This document shows positions 19,274-23,633 of a stretch of DNA of 42,328 bases, in pieces. Every line of letters starts with the position of its first letter. The first letter of the stretch is position 1. Position numbers and translations under genes: made by a program. This DNA comes from a virus, in the IMG/VR virus record IMGVR_UViG_3300047496_000268, positions 1 through 42,328 of that record; one strand, 5' to 3'. The notes beneath the pieces were generated by a model that had not been told where the DNA came from, did no database searches, and saw only the letters and a list, made by a program, of their open reading frames with translations.

Positions 19274-19348
19274 GGGGATGCCAGGTTTGATGCCTCTGAG
19301 TCTACAAAGCTTACGCAGACGTGGGTTCGATTCCCACCATCTCCACCA
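19274..19348 (+). tRNA. tRNA-like element with tmRNA-like ends
   Basis: GGGGATG pairs with CATCTCC, followed by ACCA, and the T arm GTGGG-TTCGATT-CCCAC is canonical. The rest is not: the D arm lacks the GG pair and the middle gives a weak arm whose loop CTACAAA would read ACA. The two ends closely resemble those of tmRNA (GGGGxTG and ACGTGGG...CTCCACCA), but there is no room for a tag reading frame. It may be a degenerate tRNA or a minimal tmRNA acceptor mimic. Confidence 0.45.
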
Positions 19349-19374: not shown

Positions 19375-19734
19375 ATGAATAGCTCAGTACAACCGCCAAG
19401 CCTTGAACAACTTTTGTACTTGATACCTGCCTACCTGGACGATCCAGACGGACGGGTGTTTTTGCATTTGCAGCCTTGGCATGACCGGCGCGGTTGGAAT
19501 GCTTTTTATGGCGCGGTAGACGAATTCGGCATGGGTGTTCATCCATTCTTCCGGGCGGACGGCAAGAACCCGGTGGAAGCTTTATTAAACTTAAACGGTA
19601 TGCTGAAAATGGCAAACTGGAGTTTGGAGCCTGACCCAAATGGGCAAGTGGAAGAAGAATCGCGGGAACCAAAAACGCTGGGCGAAGAGACACCTGATAA
19701 ACCAGCACGGGGCGATCTGCCAAGTATTGGGTAA
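19375..19734 (+). CDS. Unknown protein, 119 aa, probably leaderless
   Basis: ATG 19375 is placed exactly where transcription should start from the TATAAT at 19363. Residues 1-85 look folded (EQLLYLIPAYLDDPDGRVFL, WNAFYGAVDEFGMGVHPFFR). The last 30 residues are acidic and overlap the HNH gene in another frame. No recognised family. Confidence 0.65.
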   Translation: MNSSVQPPSLEQLLYLIPAYLDDPDGRVFLHLQPWHDRRGWNAFYGAVDEFGMGVHPFFRADGKNPVEALLNLNGMLKMANWSLEPDPNGQVEEESREPKTLGEETPDKPARGDLPSIG

Positions 19735-19897
19735 CCACCCGATTGATAAAATGCACGACATCACACTAGACCACGTAGTGCCCAAAGCACACGGGGGTTC
19801 TGATTTATTAGACAATTTGCAGTTGGCTTGCTATAAGCATAACCACGAAAAGGATTCTATGACGCAGGAGGAATTTCTGGAATTTCAGGAGCTATAG
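19640..19897 (+). CDS. Small HNH endonuclease, 85 aa
   Basis: The motif LDHVVPKAHGGSDLLDNLQL then ACYKHNHEK (residues 43-70) is a full HNH core: D-H, N, and the final H-N. It is one of three HNH-type genes in the genome. The N-terminus is basic (MGKWKKNRGNQKRWAKRH). Its position beside the tRNA arrays suggests either homing or a role in DNA processing; phage HNH proteins near tRNA genes are common. Confidence 0.82.
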   Translation: MGKWKKNRGNQKRWAKRHLINQHGAICQVLGNHPIDKMHDITLDHVVPKAHGGSDLLDNLQLACYKHNHEKDSMTQEEFLEFQEL

Positions 19898-20107: not shown

Positions 20108-20137
20108 TTGACAAGCGCAAATACTTTGTGCTAGGGT
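20108..20137 (+). promoter_or_regulatory. Promoter of tRNA array 1
   Basis: TTGACA (20108-20113), an 18-base spacer ending TGC, then TAGGGT (20132-20137) and AAAAT. The promoter of array 2 at 21457 has the same -35, the same spacing and the same TGCTAGGGTA -10 region. The start codon of leader peptide 1 is seven bases past the -10 box, so the RNA is probably leaderless. Confidence 0.72.
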
Positions 20138-20143
20138 AAAATC

Positions 20144-20212
20144 ATGACAACTATATGCCAGAACCCGGTCAACCGCAAACACGATAATATCGTGTCGGTT
20201 CTTGGTGCATAA
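20144..20212 (+). CDS. Leader peptide 1 (tRNA array 1 attenuator), 22 aa
   Basis: ATG to TAA with no ribosome site, starting at the predicted transcription start. Residues 4-17 read ICQNPVNRKHDNIV. Every one of these amino acids has its tRNA in the array just downstream, and ten of that array's eleven isotypes are represented (only Trp is missing). Codon region CCAGAACC pairs with GGTTCTTGG further on in the ORF, a possible protector hairpin. The 3' end pairs with the terminator arm. The composition and structure indicate a classic attenuator leader whose translation is the signal. Confidence 0.72.
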   Translation: MTTICQNPVNRKHDNIVSVLGA

Positions 20213-20274
20213 GTTGTAGCACATTTTAAGAAGCAACAAGCATCAATGAACCGCCAACCACAGGCGGTTTTTTT
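20196..20274 (+). promoter_or_regulatory. Antiterminator/terminator switch 1
   Basis: Leader segment CGGTTC (20196-20201) pairs with GAACCG (20248-20253), extended by GGTGC/GCATC (20204-20208 with 20240-20244) and GTTG/CAAC. The partner GAACCG is also the 5' arm of the terminator AACCGCC/GGCGGTT (20249-20255 with 20263-20269), which is followed by seven T. The two folds exclude each other. A ribosome at the leader stop covers the first segment and favours termination. Confidence 0.72.
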
Positions 20275-20350
20275 GTACCTAGCGCCCAGTCTTTGGTGGG
20301 AGACGGCGTAGACAGCATACGGTTAAAGGCTCCGTACCGGCTAGGTTTTT

Positions 20351-20425
20351 AAGAGATTAGTGTCAATGGCAGCACGGCGGATTCCAAACCCGCAAGCGAG
20401 AGTTCAAATCTTTCATCTCTTGCCA
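20351..20425 (+). tRNA. tRNA-Trp (CCA)
   Basis: Acceptor AAGAGAT/ATCTCTT with G73 and encoded CCA. The anticodon loop TTCCAAA reads CCA and the T loop TTCAAAT is canonical. First tRNA of array 1. The stretch 20275-20350 before it has weak hairpins but no gene. Confidence 0.88.
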
Positions 20426-20428
20426 CGT

Positions 20429-20506
20429 CAGGGTATAGCTCACGTTTAGCAGAGCGCTGGGTTTGGGACTCAGAGGCAGGGGGGGCAGCACCTCCTACCC
20501 TGACCA
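20429..20506 (+). tRNA. tRNA-Pro (TGG)
   Basis: Acceptor CAGGGTA/TACCCTG, A73, CCA. Stem CTGGG/CTCAG with loop TTTGGGA reads TGG. The T stem GGGGG/CCTCC closes a loop GGCAGCA that lacks the usual TTC. Confidence 0.85.
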
Positions 20507-20511
20507 GATAA

Positions 20512-20585
20512 CGGGATATAGCTCAATAGTAGAGCACACGCCTGATACGCGTGTGACCAAGGGGCAGAACCTTGTATCCCCACCA
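20512..20585 (+). tRNA. tRNA-Ile (GAT)
   Basis: Stem CACGC/GCGTG with loop CTGATAC reads GAT. T stem CAAGG/CCTTG has the unusual loop GGCAGAA. Acceptor CGGGATA/TATCCCC leaves a C-C mismatch at 1-72. CCA is encoded. Confidence 0.82.
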
Positions 20586-20588
20586 AGT

Positions 20589-20663
20589 GGACCCGTAGCT
20601 CAGAGGCAGAGCATCCGCCTTTTAAGCGGAACGGCGAGATTTCGAAATTCTCTGGGTCCTCCA
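20589..20663 (+). tRNA. tRNA-Lys (TTT)
   Basis: Acceptor GGACCCG/TGGGTCC, T73, CCA. Stem TCCGC/GCGGA with loop CTTTTAA reads TTT. T loop TTCGAAA. Confidence 0.92.
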
Positions 20664-20666
20664 TAA

Positions 20667-20739
20667 CCGCGTGTAGCTCAGTGGTTAGAGCGCCCCGCTT
20701 TGGGCGGGGAGGTCGGTGGTTCGAATCCACCCTCGCGGG
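20667..20739 (+). tRNA. tRNA-Gln (TTG), CCA not encoded
   Basis: Acceptor CCGCGTG/CTCGCGG with G73 followed by CTA rather than CCA. Stem CCCCG/CGGGG with loop CTTTGGG reads TTG. A shifted reading would give TGG (Pro), but it breaks the stem; Gln also agrees with the Gln codon in leader peptide 1. T arm GGTGG-TTCGAAT-CCACC is canonical. Confidence 0.72.
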
Positions 20740-20743
20740 CTAT

Positions 20744-20817
20744 CGGCAATTAGCTCAATGGGAGAGCGCTCGTCTTATATGCGAGTGACGACAGATCGAA
20801 ACTGTCATTGCCCACCA
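20744..20817 (+). tRNA. tRNA-Ile (TAT)
   Basis: Stem CTCGT/GCGAG with loop CTTATAT reads TAT, for the rare Ile codon ATA that occurs in leader peptide 1. T arm GACAG-ATCGAAA-CTGTC. Acceptor CGGCAAT/ATTGCCC has a C-C mismatch at 1-72. CCA is encoded. Confidence 0.82.
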
Positions 20818-20893
20818 GCCCGGCTAGCTCAACGGCTAGAGCGTCTATCTTACACGTAGAGGGTTGTAGGTTCGAATCCTACGCTGGGTACCA
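20818..20893 (+). tRNA. tRNA-Val (TAC)
   Basis: Starts on the base after the previous CCA. Acceptor GCCCGGC/GCTGGGT, A73, CCA. Stem TCTAT/GTAGA with loop CTTACAC reads TAC. T arm GTAGG-TTCGAAT-CCTAC. Confidence 0.92.
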
Positions 20894-20897
20894 ATTT

Positions 20898-20972
20898 ACT
20901 TCGCTAGGCTAACGGATAAACCTTTTGGCTTCGAACCAAACATTGCCCGTTCGAATCGGGCGCGGGGTACCA
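20898..20972 (+). tRNA. tRNA-Arg (TCG)
   Basis: Acceptor ACTTCGC/GCGGGGT, A73, CCA. Stem TTTGG/CCAAA with loop CTTCGAA reads TCG. T arm GCCCG-TTCGAAT-CGGGC. Confidence 0.9.
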
Positions 20973-20984
20973 ATTTAACATTTT

Positions 20985-21064
20985 GTGGAGAACGAAGAAG
21001 AAGTAGACGATTCGCCGTCCTGTGAAGACGGAGGAAGCCAGCGCGCGTCTGGTCGTTCACCCCA
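20985..21064 (+). tRNA. tRNA-His (GTG), degenerate ends
   Basis: Stem CCGTC/GACGG with loop CTGTGAA reads GTG, and the 3' end CCCCA gives the C73 expected for His. The acceptor pairs over only about five bases (GTGGA with TTCAC), the D arm is poorly formed and the T loop is CGCGCGT. It is probably a real but divergent tRNA. Confidence 0.6.
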
Positions 21065-21069
21065 GGTAT

Positions 21070-21144
21070 GCTGTTGTAGCTCAAGAGCAGAGCACTCCCC
21101 TGTCACGGGAGAGGTTGCGGTGGCGGAATCCGTCAGCAGCGCCA
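21070..21144 (+). tRNA. tRNA-Asp (GTC)
   Basis: Acceptor GCTGTTG/CAGCAGC, G73, CCA. Stem CTCCC/GGGAG with loop CTGTCAC reads GTC. The T loop GGCGGAA is non-canonical. Confidence 0.87.
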
Positions 21145-21149
21145 AATAA

Positions 21150-21223
21150 TCTTTGATAGTTTAGTGGTAAAACGCCTCCCTGTTAAGGAGTTGTCCCAGG
21201 TTCGAGCCCTGGTCGAAGAGCCA
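21150..21223 (+). tRNA. tRNA-Asn (GTT)
   Basis: Acceptor TCTTTGA/TCGAAGA, G73, CCA. Loop CTGTTAA reads GTT. T arm CCAGG-TTCGAGC-CCTGG. Confidence 0.92.
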
Positions 21224-21227
21224 AGAT

Positions 21228-21302
21228 GGAACGTTGGCTGAGTGGTAAAAGCTTTCGATTGCAAACCGAAGAACACTGGTTCGACTCCAGTACGTTCCTC
21301 CA
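21228..21302 (+). tRNA. tRNA-Cys (GCA)
   Basis: Acceptor GGAACGT/ACGTTCC, T73 as usual for Cys, CCA. Loop TTGCAAA reads GCA. T arm ACTGG-TTCGACT-CCAGT. Confidence 0.93.
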
Positions 21303-21305
21303 TAA

Positions 21306-21376
21306 ACCTCCGTCCTAGGACAGGTGAAAGGTGTTCTAAGCCTTAATGTAGGGTTCGACTCCTTACGGGGGTACCA
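21306..21376 (+). tRNA. tRNA-Arg (TCT)
   Basis: Acceptor ACCTCCG/CGGGGGT, A73, CCA. Stem AAGGT/GCCTT with loop GTTCTAA reads TCT. The D arm is short (CCT/AGG). T arm TAGGG-TTCGACT-CCTTA. Confidence 0.85.
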
Positions 21377-21377
21377 A

Positions 21378-21454
21378 GGGCTCATAGCTCAGCCGGTCAG
21401 AGCATCTGCCTCTTAAGCAGGATGTCCTGGGTTCGAACCCCAGTGAGCCCTCCA
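21378..21454 (+). tRNA. tRNA-Lys (CTT)
   Basis: Acceptor GGGCTCA/TGAGCCC, T73, CCA. Loop CTCTTAA reads CTT. T arm CTGGG-TTCGAAC-CCCAG. Last tRNA of array 1; the next promoter starts two bases later, with no terminator between. Confidence 0.95.
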
Positions 21455-21456
21455 AT

Positions 21457-21486
21457 TTGACAAACTAATTAGCACTATGCTAGGGT
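21457..21486 (+). promoter_or_regulatory. Promoter of tRNA array 2
   Basis: TTGACA (21457-21462), an 18-base spacer ending in TGC, then TAGGGT (21481-21486) and AGAA. It matches the array 1 promoter in both boxes and spacing. The leader ATG lies nine bases after the -10 box, so there is almost no untranslated leader. Confidence 0.72.
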
Positions 21487-21495
21487 AGAAAAGTT

Positions 21496-21555
21496 ATGAG
21501 TAACTACGAGCAACAGACAGAAGCCGGTACCACCCTCCACGAGGTTTCTTCTTAG
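21496..21555 (+). CDS. Leader peptide 2 (tRNA array 2 attenuator), 19 aa
   Basis: The peptide reads MSNYEQQTEAGTTLHEVSS. Its core EQQTEAGTT uses only Glu, Gln, Thr, Ala and Gly, the isotypes of the array downstream. Both Gln codons (CAA, CAG) and both Glu codons (GAG, GAA) appear, matching the four separate Gln and Glu tRNAs of that array (TTG, CTG, CTC, TTC). Segment AGAAGCC inside the ORF can pair with GGTTTCT near its end, a possible protector. No ribosome site is visible. Confidence 0.75.
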   Translation: MSNYEQQTEAGTTLHEVSS

Positions 21556-21614
21556 CACCCGTACATAACCACCCAAATAGAAGAAGAGACCTCGGCGAGC
21601 ACCGAGGTTTTTTT
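21540..21614 (+). promoter_or_regulatory. Antiterminator/terminator switch 2
   Basis: The last codons of leader 2, CGAGGTTTCTTCTT (21540-21553), pair with AAGAAGAGACCTCG (21581-21594) over 14 continuous pairs with one G-U. The second strand contains the 5' arm of the terminator ACCTCGG/CCGAGGT (21589-21595 with 21602-21608), followed by a T run to 21614. The two structures are mutually exclusive, the defining feature of an attenuator. Confidence 0.8.
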
Positions 21615-21628
21615 GTACCTTTCAATCT

Positions 21629-21704
21629 GGCGGATTAGTTCACCTGGCTAAAATAACTCCCTTGTAACGAGTAGCACTCGGTTCGAGTCCGAGATTCGCC
21701 TCCA
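21629..21704 (+). tRNA. tRNA-Thr (TGT)
   Basis: Acceptor GGCGGAT/ATTCGCC, T73, CCA. Loop CTTGTAA reads TGT. T arm CTCGG-TTCGAGT-CCGAG. First tRNA of array 2. Confidence 0.9.
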
Positions 21705-21709
21705 AATAT

Positions 21710-21783
21710 GCGTGTGTATGCTAGTGGTAAACTGCTTTCCTTCCAAGTAAGCGCTCTCGGTTCGATTCCGAGTACACGCACCA
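21710..21783 (+). tRNA. tRNA-Gly (TCC)
   Basis: Acceptor GCGTGTG/TACACGC, A73, CCA. Loop CTTCCAA reads TCC; the anticodon stem has one T-T mismatch. T arm CTCGG-TTCGATT-CCGAG. Confidence 0.88.
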
Positions 21784-21786
21784 AAC

Positions 21787-21861
21787 GGGGATATAGTTAA
21801 ATGGCTATAACAATTCTTTTGCAAGGAGTAGTTCTGAGTTCGATTCTCAGTGTTTCCACCA
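21787..21861 (+). tRNA. tRNA-Ala (TGC)
   Basis: Acceptor GGGGATA/TGTTTCC contains several G-U pairs; A73, CCA. Loop TTTGCAA reads TGC. T arm CTGAG-TTCGATT-CTCAG. Confidence 0.88.
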
Positions 21862-21862
21862 A

Positions 21863-21937
21863 CGCCCATTCAGCTAATGGCTAGGCTCACTGTTTTTCAG
21901 ACAGTAAAAGAGGGATCGAAACCCTCATGGGTGACCA
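21863..21937 (+). tRNA. tRNA-Glu (TTC)
   Basis: Acceptor CGCCCAT/ATGGGTG, A73, CCA. Stem ACTGT/ACAGT with loop TTTTCAG reads TTC. T arm GAGGG-ATCGAAA-CCCTC. Confidence 0.9.
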
Positions 21938-22011
21938 CAACGCAGGGACAGATAGCAAGTCGCTGCCCTCTCAAGGCGGAATATCGGGAGCGTAACCCGA
22001 TGCGTTGACCA
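21938..22011 (+). tRNA. tRNA-Glu (CTC)
   Basis: Directly abuts the previous tRNA. Acceptor CAACGCA/TGCGTTG, A73, CCA. Loop CTCTCAA reads CTC. T stem TCGGG/CCCGA with loop AGCGTAA, which lacks the TTC. Confidence 0.85.
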
Positions 22012-22014
22012 TAA

Positions 22015-22091
22015 TGGTTCGTAGACAAATTGGTAAAGTCGCCTGGCTTTGACCCAGGAGCCTGTAGGTTCGAAGCCTACCGAGCCAGCCA
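22015..22091 (+). tRNA. tRNA-Gln (TTG)
   Basis: Acceptor TGGTTCG/CGAGCCA, G73, CCA. Stem CCTGG/CCAGG with loop CTTTGAC reads TTG. T arm GTAGG-TTCGAAG-CCTAC. Confidence 0.93.
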
Positions 22092-22094
22092 TAG

Positions 22095-22169
22095 TGAGGA
22101 GTCGTCTAATCGGTAGGACGCTGGTCTCTGACTCCAGTAATCAAGGTTCGAACCCTTGCACCTCAGCCA
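22095..22169 (+). tRNA. tRNA-Gln (CTG)
   Basis: Acceptor TGAGGAG/CACCTCA with one A-A mismatch, G73, CCA. Loop CTCTGAC reads CTG. T arm CAAGG-TTCGAAC-CCTTG. Confidence 0.88.
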
Positions 22170-22188
22170 AATTTTTGATAATCTAGGT

Positions 22189-22288
22189 GGGTAACATCTT
22201 AATGTAGCAACCATAAGAGCGTGATACTCTCTCGCGAATAGGGTGATAGCCACAAGCATGATGTTGCCACGATTTAACATCACCCTAT
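22189..22288 (+). ncRNA. Structured element / degenerate tRNA-Ile-like sequence
   Basis: GATGTT at 22260-22265 can pair with AACATC upstream (22189-22194), giving a tRNA-like acceptor with G73-CCA and a GAT anticodon loop but no proper T arm. It can also pair with AACATC at 22276-22281. A perfect 10-bp inverted repeat ATAGGGTGAT/ATCACCCTAT (22239-22288) spans the second option. It may be a decayed tRNA or an alternative-fold RNA before leader peptide 3. Confidence 0.4.
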
Positions 22289-22290
22289 AT

Positions 22291-22365
22291 AGCGGATTTG
22301 AGTTCCAGTGAACTCATCGGTCTCATACGCCGACAAGACGGGGGCAGCACCCGTATCCGCAACCA
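22291..22365 (+). tRNA. tRNA-Met (CAT)
   Basis: Stem TCGGT/GCCGA with loop CTCATAC reads CAT. D arm GAGT/ACTC. T stem ACGGG/CCCGT with loop GGCAGCA. Acceptor AGCGGAT/ATCCGCA has an A-A mismatch at 1-72, which recalls the unpaired 1-72 of bacterial initiators; initiator or elongator cannot be decided. CCA is encoded. Confidence 0.82.
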
Positions 22366-22395
22366 AGTTAGATGTAGTTTAAGAAGGTGTACACA

Positions 22396-22455
22396 ATGAC
22401 AAAGCGATTATCGTTTTCAAGTTTGTATCTCTCCCTGGAAAGCGGAGCTTCTTAA
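22396..22455 (+). CDS. Leader peptide 3 (tRNA array 3 attenuator), 19 aa
   Basis: The peptide reads MTKRLSFSSLYLSLESGAS. Its core LSFSSLYLSL uses only Leu, Ser, Phe and Tyr, exactly the four isotypes of array 3. Leu codons TTA, TTG, CTC and CTG cover the TAA, CAA and TAG anticodons; Ser codons come from both the TCN and AGY families, matching the TGA and GCT tRNAs. GAAGGTG upstream may serve as a ribosome site. No clear promoter is seen just before it, so it may be read from array 2. Confidence 0.75.
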   Translation: MTKRLSFSSLYLSLESGAS

Positions 22456-22511
22456 AAGTACCTTATTTGTTCCTTTAGACTAAAGAAGCTCCCAACCGTA
22501 GGGAGCTTTTT
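22444..22511 (+). promoter_or_regulatory. Antiterminator/terminator switch 3
   Basis: The end of leader 3, GGAGCTTCTT (22444-22453), pairs perfectly over 10 bp with AAGAAGCTCC (22483-22492). That second strand holds most of the 5' arm of the terminator AAGCTCCC/GGGAGCTT (22486-22493 with 22501-22508), followed by T residues. Same arrangement as switches 1 and 2. Confidence 0.8.
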
Positions 22512-22515
22512 ATAT

Positions 22516-22589
22516 GTCTTTGTAGCTCAACAGTAGAGCAACCGGTTGAAGCCCGGCGCGAGAGGGTGCGACTCCTTCCGAAGACACCA
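22516..22589 (+). tRNA. tRNA-Phe (GAA)
   Basis: Acceptor GTCTTTG/CGAAGAC, A73, CCA. Loop TTGAAGC reads GAA; the first pair of the anticodon stem is A-C. T loop TGCGACT. First tRNA of array 3. Confidence 0.87.
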
Positions 22590-22592
22590 TAT

Positions 22593-22677
22593 GGCGCGGT
22601 ATACCTCTAAGGACGGGGGGCTGTCTGTAAAACAGTCGTCATTGACTGGCTAGGATCGTTACCTAGGCGCGTCACCA
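22593..22677 (+). tRNA. tRNA-Tyr (GTA)
   Basis: Stem GCTGT/ACAGT with loop CTGTAAA reads GTA. A variable arm GTC-ATT-GAC gives the class II form expected for Tyr. T arm CTAGG-ATCGTTA-CCTAG. Acceptor GGCGCGG/GCGCGTC has a mismatch at 7-66; A73, CCA. Confidence 0.85.
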
Positions 22678-22680
22678 TAA

Positions 22681-22763
22681 GCTCGTATGGCGAAATTGGC
22701 ATACGCGGGGGCATCAAAAGCCCCTCCTTCGGGGTGTAGGTTCGAGTCCTACTACGAGTACCA
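22681..22763 (+). tRNA. tRNA-Leu (CAA)
   Basis: Acceptor GCTCGTA/TACGAGT, A73, CCA. Stem GGGGC/GCCCC with loop ATCAAAA reads CAA. Long variable arm CCTTCGGG. T arm GTAGG-TTCGAGT-CCTAC. Confidence 0.93.
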
Positions 22764-22764
22764 A

Positions 22765-22850
22765 GCAGATGTGGTGGAACGGTATACACAGTTGCCTTAG
22801 AAGCAGCCGTCCTTAGTGGCTTGAGAGTTCGAATCTCTCCATCTGTACCA
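22765..22850 (+). tRNA. tRNA-Leu (TAG)
   Basis: Acceptor GCAGATG/CATCTGT, A73, CCA. Stem GTTGC/GCAGC with loop CTTAGAA reads TAG. Long variable arm. T arm GAGAG-TTCGAAT-CTCTC. Confidence 0.92.
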
Positions 22851-22853
22851 TAA

Positions 22854-22929
22854 GCGGTCATAGCCGAACGGCATAGGCAAGGAGCTTAAACCTCCAAATT
22901 TGATGGTTCGAATCCATCTGACCGTACCA
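22854..22929 (+). tRNA. tRNA-Leu (TAA), short variable arm
   Basis: Acceptor GCGGTCA/TGACCGT, A73, CCA. Loop CTTAAAC reads TAA. The variable region is only about five bases, unlike normal class II Leu tRNAs. T arm GATGG-TTCGAAT-CCATC. Leucine identity relies on the anticodon and on TTA in leader peptide 3. Confidence 0.82.
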
Positions 22930-22932
22930 TGT

Positions 22933-23020
22933 GGAAGGACAAGCCAATTGGCGATGGCAGCAATTTTGAAAATTGCCGAGTGTAACAGCCTTGAGGGTTC
23001 GACTCCGTCTCCTTCCGCCA
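22933..23020 (+). tRNA. tRNA-Ser (TGA)
   Basis: Acceptor GGAAGGA/TCCTTCC, G73, CCA. Stem GCAAT/ATTGC with loop TTTGAAA reads TGA. Long variable arm. T loop TTCGACT. Confidence 0.92.
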
Positions 23021-23023
23021 CGT

Positions 23024-23110
23024 GGAAGATAAACTGTACAGGGTACAGGCGCGCCCGCTAAGCGTAGCGAACTTAACCGGTTTGGGTTTCGATTACTCTG
23101 TCTTCCGCCA
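23024..23110 (+). tRNA. tRNA-Ser (GCT), C33
   Basis: Acceptor GGAAGAT/GTCTTCC, G73, CCA, D arm CTG/CAG and a long variable region. The loop CCGCTAA reads GCT but has C at position 33 instead of the nearly universal T. Last tRNA; no terminator is visible before the converging minus-strand operon. Confidence 0.75.
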
Positions 23111-23111
23111 T

Positions 23112-23633
23112 TTAGAAATTTTCAACCCTGTTAGTCAAACTAAGCTCTTCTGCCGGGGTGAGCTCCTGGACTTGTGTATGGTCAATTTGGTGCAACGGCA
23201 CCACAAAGGTCATCATCACGTAGTTATCGTTCTCGCTCAGTAGGCGGTAGCTGGGTATTTTGCTATAGTAGCCTTCCCACTTCCGGCGCGGAACTGATTT
23301 TTTAACCCACCGAGCTGCGATAGCGTCACTGTATTGGTACTCGCCAGGTGTACCATCCGGTTTGGTGAAGGATAGTTTCTTGCCTGGAACATAGATGGGC
23401 TCTTTGAATGCCTGGCTCGCACCTTCCAGCAGTTTTTGGTCGGTGTACATTTGGTCTGACTCTCGGAAATCTTTTATGTCTTTGACAATGATACTGCGCG
23501 TGGGCGTAGTGATAGCTCCTTCTTGCTTGGCGATCAGGTTTTGGATGTGTTGAATTTTGGCAGGGTCGGGCTTAACTTTGATGATTTCACCAGAGTAGAG
23601 CTCAATGTGCCAATACAATTGCGGGTCTTCCAT
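23112..23633 (-). CDS. Unknown protein, 173 aa
   Basis: Last gene of early operon B; its start overlaps the stop of the HAD gene. Mixed alpha/beta (YWHIELYSGEIIKVKPDPAK, AITTPTRSIIVKDIKDFRES) with an acidic C-terminus. It faces the tRNA arrays tail to tail with a one-base gap. No family recognised. Confidence 0.7.
   Translation of the reverse strand: MEDPQLYWHIELYSGEIIKVKPDPAKIQHIQNLIAKQEGAITTPTRSIIVKDIKDFRESDQMYTDQKLLEGASQAFKEPIYVPGKKLSFTKPDGTPGEYQYSDAIAARWVKKSVPRRKWEGYYSKIPSYRLLSENDNYVMMTFVVPLHQIDHTQVQELTPAEELSLTNRVENF

Follow-up and report, generated by a model that had tools for sequence, protein, structure and literature searches.

Leader Peptides Matched to Downstream tRNA Arrays Suggest Ribosome-mediated Attenuation in Phages

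In the present study, we analyzed the virus record IMGVR_UViG_3300047496_000268 over its whole length of 42,328 bases (hereafter, the window), in which three tRNA arrays lie on the + strand between 20.1 and 23.1 kb. An earlier note on this DNA described a short open reading frame (ORF) before each array, followed by an intrinsic terminator and then the tRNA genes. We found all three leaders in this arrangement, with a terminator between each leader and its tRNA genes (Table 1). The core of each leader peptide is composed of amino acids that correspond to the tRNAs of its own array. We consider it highly probable that each array is under the control of a ribosome-mediated transcription attenuator that responds to how well the array's own tRNAs are supplied.

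Leader peptides and switch elements of the window

The residues that belong to the own array number 15/21, 10/18, and 12/18 in leaders 1, 2, and 3, respectively, versus 2-5 for the other arrays. Uninterrupted runs of own isotypes extend to 14, 9, and 10 residues, whereas those of the other arrays' isotypes reach 1-2. With all tRNAs included, none of 200,000 permutations of the isotype labels reached the sum of these runs, which bears out the claim of the earlier note that each core is restricted to its own array. When only tool-called tRNAs were considered, the runs were 9, 9, and 6, and the sum was still reached by 0/200,000 permutations. Each leader was also the top-scoring short ORF for its own set among all window ORFs of 12-40 amino acids on both strands (4,461 ORF x set tests). 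When the leader DNA of the window was read in the two remaining frames, no isotype match was seen. Leader 1 lacks a Trp codon, though array 1 contains a Trp tRNA.

In all three leaders, an antiterminator forms through base pairing between the ORF end and the 5' arm of the following terminator. The earlier note had deduced attenuation from the codons alone; the predicted antiterminators overlapping the ORF ends complete this anatomy. Two further elements were added to that description, namely, exact promoter pairs and a Shine-Dalgarno sequence for leader 3. The pattern TTGACA-N16-GCTAGGGTA has two exact matches in the whole window, which are located before leaders 1 and 2. The spacing between promoter and ATG is typical for leaderless mRNA in both cases, and the transcript from promoter 1 may start at or near the ATG, yielding a leaderless mRNA. 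Array 2 ends with a tRNA-like element ahead of leader 3, which carries the Shine-Dalgarno sequence, so that a start signal, as expected of ribosome-mediated attenuators, is present in every leader. The promoter pattern with a leaderless ATG was also used as a search key. It retrieved other phages, none of which had arrays at the match, and the pattern plus a T7 run retrieved 25 loci, with arrays in none.

Folding of the switch was predicted for a transcript that ends at the terminator loop, the ribosome footprint being masked at each codon. The antiterminator probability averaged over core stalls was 0.67, 0.86, and 0.89 for leaders 1, 2, and 3, respectively, and 0.42, 0.29, and 0.44 with the ribosome at the stop codon. 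Stalls through most of the core gave values of 0.7-0.9, 0.9, and 0.9-1.0, and positions past the core gave 0.1-0.4, 0.2-0.3, and 0.4. In the predicted folds, the antiterminator is exclusive with the terminator, exposed by a stall, and masked at the end of the leader. The predicted switch point falls where the isotype run ends; therefore, it is at the array-matched codons that a stall would free the polymerase.

Table 1. Leaders, regulatory elements, and tRNA arrays of the window
Feature	Position	Strand	Sequence or content	Remark
Promoter 1	20108..20138	+	TTGACA-N16-GCTAGGGTA	exact match
Leader peptide 1	20144..20212	+	MTTICQNPVNRKHDNIVSVLGA	core, codons 4-17
Antiterminator 1, 5' strand	20196..20208	+	CGGTTCTTGGTGC	in end of ORF 1
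Antiterminator 1, 3' strand	20240..20253	+	GCATCAATGAACCG	overlaps 5' arm of terminator 1
Intrinsic terminator 1	20248..20274	+	GAACCGCC..GGCGGTTTTTTT	
tRNA array 1	20351..21454	+	Trp, Pro, Ile(GAT), Lys(TTT), Gln(TTG), Ile(TAT), Val, Arg(TCG), His, Asp, Asn, Cys, Arg(TCT), Lys(CTT)	His by eye
Promoter 2	21457..21487	+	TTGACA-N16-GCTAGGGTA	exact match
Leader peptide 2	21496..21555	+	MSNYEQQTEAGTTLHEVSS	core, codons 5-13
Antiterminator 2, 5' strand	21540..21553	+	CGAGGTTTCTTCTT	end of ORF 2
Antiterminator 2, 3' strand	21581..21594	+	AAGAAGAGACCTCG	
Intrinsic terminator 2	21589..21615	+	ACCTCGG..CCGAGGTTTTTTT	
tRNA array 2	21629..22368	+	Thr, Gly, Ala, Glu(TTC), Glu(CTC), Gln(TTG), Gln(CTG), Met	Glu(CTC) by eye; Met by eye, 22299-22368
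Shine-Dalgarno of leader 3	22381..22387	+	AAGAAGG	from sequence
Leader peptide 3	22396..22455	+	MTKRLSFSSLYLSLESGAS	core, codons 5-14
Antiterminator 3, 5' strand	22444..22453	+	GGAGCTTCTT	end of ORF 3
Antiterminator 3, 3' strand	22483-22492	+		first ten bases of terminator 3
Intrinsic terminator 3	22483..22511	+	AAGAAGCTCCC..GGGAGCTTTTT	
tRNA array 3	22516..23112	+	Phe, Tyr, Leu(CAA), Leu(TAG), Leu(TAA), Ser(TGA), Ser(GCT)	Tyr and Ser(GCT) by eye

Recurrence in other phages

Independent loci were collected from IMG/VR contigs with a T-run close before tRNAs, a pattern that is blind to peptide composition. Leaders were selected by structure alone: an ATG start, 12-45 amino acids, a stem of 8 or more pairs 18-45 nucleotides after the stop codon, and the best antiterminator. 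The window was excluded and isolates were added, which resulted in a set of 30 non-redundant leaders. The run statistic of these leaders was 134.2, versus a permuted mean of 22.9 (standard deviation 7.9, maximum 75.0; 20,000 permutations). The earlier note had proposed a permutation of leader composition against downstream isotypes, and this result, obtained on composition-blind loci without the window, is decisive for the association. In a reading-frame control on the first 25 leaders, the statistic was 96.7 in frame and 11.6 and 7.1 in the shifted frames. A bacterial control with the same pattern, T6-tRNA-tRNA (120 loci, 704 tRNAs), yielded one structural candidate and no match.

A core stall gave a higher antiterminator probability than the stop codon in 16/20 leaders (p=1.7e-4), and antiterminator pairing was stronger than with shuffled ORF ends (mean z -2.6; n=18 composition-selected leaders). 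The procedure used here superseded equilibrium folding with a masked ribosome, which fitted leaders 2 and 3 of the window as well as some others and failed for GC-rich leaders.

The isotype mix of a leader ranges from 4 to 16. At the loci L134, L142, and L183, the array after the leader MKNCSKHNINRMISQINGCYQTVAFWAKGK.. consists of F, K, W, R, C, I, V, N, Y, G, A, M, H, T, and Q tRNAs (one-letter codes) plus a Ser tRNA recognized by eye, while a second leader, ..EDDLLED.., precedes E, D, M, and L; the mix reaches 16 isotypes in L134 and L183. Smaller sets follow the same rule: FDFAFFAAEED precedes F, E, D, A (L281); LSLLTSLSTC precedes S, T, C, H, T, L (L269); NTTNSSTAPVN precedes T, N, P, S, S (L194); and HGTWFMG precedes W, F, H, T, M, G (L166). 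In a 642-kb uncultured phage, RSRSS is followed by R, S, R, and NKHKHF by F, H, F, K, K, K. We also noted a family of the form MLN(I/V/D)..LPGNTGTALEDTP.. with very strong antiterminators (L244, L258, L259, and L211), which precedes Gly, Glu, and Leu (Ala, Asp) tRNAs, the lists of which may be incomplete.

The design recurs in many unrelated phages, and its cultured carriers are phiCbK, Rogue, Colossus, Brevundimonas phages, and Cellulophaga phage phi4:1. In phi4:1, IQRLHLQELEQP precedes P, E, Q, H, L, L, R.. and NYCTYNNSNWSFSY precedes Y, S, N, W, F. In Caulobacter phages, the leader MSKTYRQFVRQIQVVRNIRAG.. precedes F, V, I, I, V, Q, Q. Its relatives are found in 43 Caulobacter/Brevundimonas phage records, including RB23, and Colossus carries a version of its own. 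In RB23, Kikimora, and Colossus, one to three Asn residues occur in the leader, and an Asn tRNA is present in the array.

The protein gp083 of phiCbK (MFALSHNSLSTKAASPASLSLAPLATATKPSTKPTTSASHSTDHL; L311:1708-1845, AFU86915), annotated as a hypothetical protein, precedes a P, K, L, A, S tRNA array; relatives also have T and H tRNAs. Residues from the set P, T, K, L, H, A, S account for 41/44 positions of gp083 (binomial 2e-12) and 42/44 of its Rogue counterpart (1e-13). A tblastn search with gp083 retrieved no hits, probably owing to the low-complexity filter. Among five gp083-type phages, 16 of the 17 replaced residues kept their membership in the array set, whereas single-base replacements would give 48%. 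Radical replacements (K/S/T, P/L/S, T/H) are tolerated in Caulobacter phages when they remain inside the set. Judged from these comparisons, the sequence of the leader peptide drifts while its isotype membership stays, and gp083 is very probably the leader peptide of the Pro/Lys/Leu/Ala/Ser tRNA array. A third phiCbK candidate leader, MTHLLTRYEREATGLDTTTA (L311:249-311), is located before Glu-Asp tRNAs and an annotated terminator.

Scans of T4, T5, KVP40, CR3, Arash, MD18, phiEa21-4, Luma, DLP6, Wakanda, and BcoS-136 revealed no matching leader; a weak candidate in KVP40 was not counted. T4, T5, and several of the others are rich in tRNAs, and the design is not universal.

Proposed mechanism and alternative explanations

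We infer from these elements that the leaders are translated, that a stalled ribosome causes read-through, and that tRNA shortage is the signal. The ribosome would begin the leader ORF while it is being transcribed. When the core tRNAs are all plentiful, the ribosome would reach the stop codon and cover the antiterminator strand; the terminator would then form and transcription would end ahead of the tRNAs. When any tRNA of the set is scarce, the ribosome would pause in the core, the antiterminator strand would pair with the 5' arm of the terminator, and the polymerase would continue into the array, where the missing tRNA is encoded. A single leader would thus act as an OR gate across its tRNA set, within a negative feedback loop. 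A likely, though less certain, benefit would be the replacement of tRNAs that run out late in infection or are lost to anticodon nucleases of the host.

Several points weigh against this mechanism. A part of the window's tRNAs rests on calls made by eye. The closest relatives of the window have no tRNAs, and, thus, leader conservation is not comparable within its own clade. The survey loci were picked through a terminator-like T-run near tRNAs, so that their counts are not estimates of prevalence. In the Caulobacter Phe/Val/Ile/Gln leader, masking occurs in the middle of the ORF instead of at its end, and the antiterminator reopens with the ribosome at the stop codon. Equilibrium folding alone favors the terminator in several GC-rich leaders; therefore, the argument for these leaders needs the co-transcriptional order of events. 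Moreover, the codon-anticodon match (134/170) is slightly above the 124.4 expected from synonymous usage (z 2.2), and, therefore, leaders and arrays match mainly at the amino-acid level.

This last point fits an attenuator of the same build that senses a shortage of amino acids through uncharged tRNA, with the tRNA genes being induced in a starvation response; the anatomy is identical to that of amino-acid attenuators. However, a lack of amino acid is not relieved by more tRNA, a leader of up to 16 isotypes suits a sensor of a tRNA set better than a nutrient sensor, and codon choice leans, if weakly, to the encoded anticodons. We consider amino-acid shortage to be an unlikely signal. Because extra tRNA is useless against it and the leaders combine so many isotypes, we infer that tRNA abundance is sensed instead.

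Alternatively, a stalled ribosome may protect or expose RNase sites, in which case tRNA processing would change and not termination. The same composition signal would result if tRNA maturation were coupled to translation. However, in every case the stop codon is followed within a few dozen bases by an intrinsic terminator, together with an exclusive antiterminator, which makes a post-transcriptional action of the leaders very improbable.

We regard it as scarcely credible that the terminators merely insulate the arrays or fix a level of read-through while the short ORFs occur by chance. Short ORFs are common, and some terminator-bearing arrays show no composition match (e.g., L236, L249, and L157). 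However, the permutation and reading-frame tests contradict this explanation and already refute it as a general account, the antiterminators are tied to the ORF ends, and substitutions are kept within the array isotypes. It is equally hard to accept that the leaders are functional small proteins of odd composition, such as gp083, with a secondary likeness to the arrays: some are annotated as hypothetical proteins (AFU86915 and XTP78787), but peptides of different phages share no sequence, only array-isotype membership, and Caulobacter phages accept chemically radical changes within the set.

Genomic setting, related systems, and implications

The window encodes a large terminase (Terminase_3) and an SU10-type adaptor. 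Its nearest relatives are circularly permuted relative to the record; therefore, the record is probably the complete genome of a small tailed phage. The tRNAs are absent from its terminase relatives (62-81% identity). A more distant relative (L027, 44%) has an array, but its contig stops before the array start. Bacterial genomes searched with the terminase alignment contained no match that would indicate the host.

The tRNAs called with ARAGORN and Rfam cover 17 amino acids. The cloverleafs of His, Met, Tyr, Glu(CTC), and Ser(GCT) were recognized by eye only, and Rfam scans of these five gave no call. The Arg(TCT) tRNA of array 1 scored 23.9 bits, under the Rfam cut-off of 29. Provided that the tRNAs recognized by eye are real, all 20 amino acids are served by approximately 29 tRNAs in a 42-kb phage. 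A 75-nucleotide RNA at 19274-19348 resembles transfer-messenger RNA (tmRNA; Rfam RF00023, 53.1 bits, cut-off 47); it has a G3-U70 pair and a tmRNA-type 3' end without a tag ORF, and ARAGORN called it tRNA-Cys(aca). A second hairpin, CCTAGC..GCTAGG followed by TTTTT, is located between terminator 1 and tRNA-Trp (20277-20349) and is possibly a further terminator or a decayed tRNA. The interval from Gln(CTG) to the Met-like tRNA (22173-22295) contains the inverted repeats ATAGGGTGAT/ATCACCCTAT and GTGGGTAACATC/GATGTTGCCAC. A small ORF adjoining the arrays (19640-19897) resembles an HNH endonuclease by eye.

The trpL, hisL, leuL, thrL, and ilvL attenuators likewise combine a short leader ORF carrying regulatory codons, an overlapping antiterminator, and an intrinsic terminator, and a stall there means read-through, as we propose for the phage leaders. 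However, their leaders sample one to three amino acids and control biosynthetic enzymes, whereas those described here sample 4 to 16 isotypes, lie in phage genomes, and would control tRNA genes. The window leaders do not belong to the biosynthesis sub-class, as the controlled genes are tRNAs and not amino-acid-making or synthetase genes. T-box riboswitches also switch between terminator and antiterminator according to tRNA status; however, a T-box binds the tRNA directly, whereas the sensor of the phage leaders would be the translating ribosome and the targets are tRNA genes. An Rfam scan of the window listed no T-box and no convincing known RNA family at the leaders.

Phage tRNAs are known to evade host anticodon nucleases and tRNA-targeting retrons (PMC10264068, PMC11555353), and there, too, the phage replaces tRNAs removed by the host. 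These studies describe tRNA supply, with a strong promoter for SP15, and a term search of both found neither attenuation nor a leader peptide. The report on phiCbK-like genomes (PMC3556154) covers the same loci as the present study, annotating the tRNAs and predicted rho-independent terminators and listing gp083 as hypothetical, and recognized no leader peptide or attenuation there. The earlier note was aware of no published amino-acid-type attenuation of such arrays, and our full-text search of non-subscription literature, including papers on phage tRNAs and phiCbK, agrees with this. The class of mechanism is classical; what is new, as far as can be told, is its target, its multi-tRNA input, and its carriers.

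For fifty years, opinions have differed on why phages carry tRNA genes; the leading ideas are codon compensation and an escape from anticodon nucleases. We think it probable that phages possess a general class of tRNA-set sensors, i.e., attenuators with multi-isotype leaders that follow the supply of every phage-encoded tRNA in translation and switch on only the array able to repair the shortage, probably as an inducible answer to the cleavage or exhaustion of host tRNAs. If this is true, the attenuators reveal the signal to which phages respond, namely, the scarcity of the tRNAs they encode. Host anticodon nucleases may be the natural trigger, and the exhaustion of host tRNAs in infection is an alternative. 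The question of phage tRNAs becomes directly testable in laboratory systems, such as phiCbK in Caulobacter and phi4:1 in Cellulophaga. Hypothetical proteins such as gp083 would be explained, and the leaders may provide natural parts for biosensors of tRNA levels. Ribosome-mediated attenuation would also be extended to non-coding RNA genes and to the simultaneous sensing of many tRNAs.

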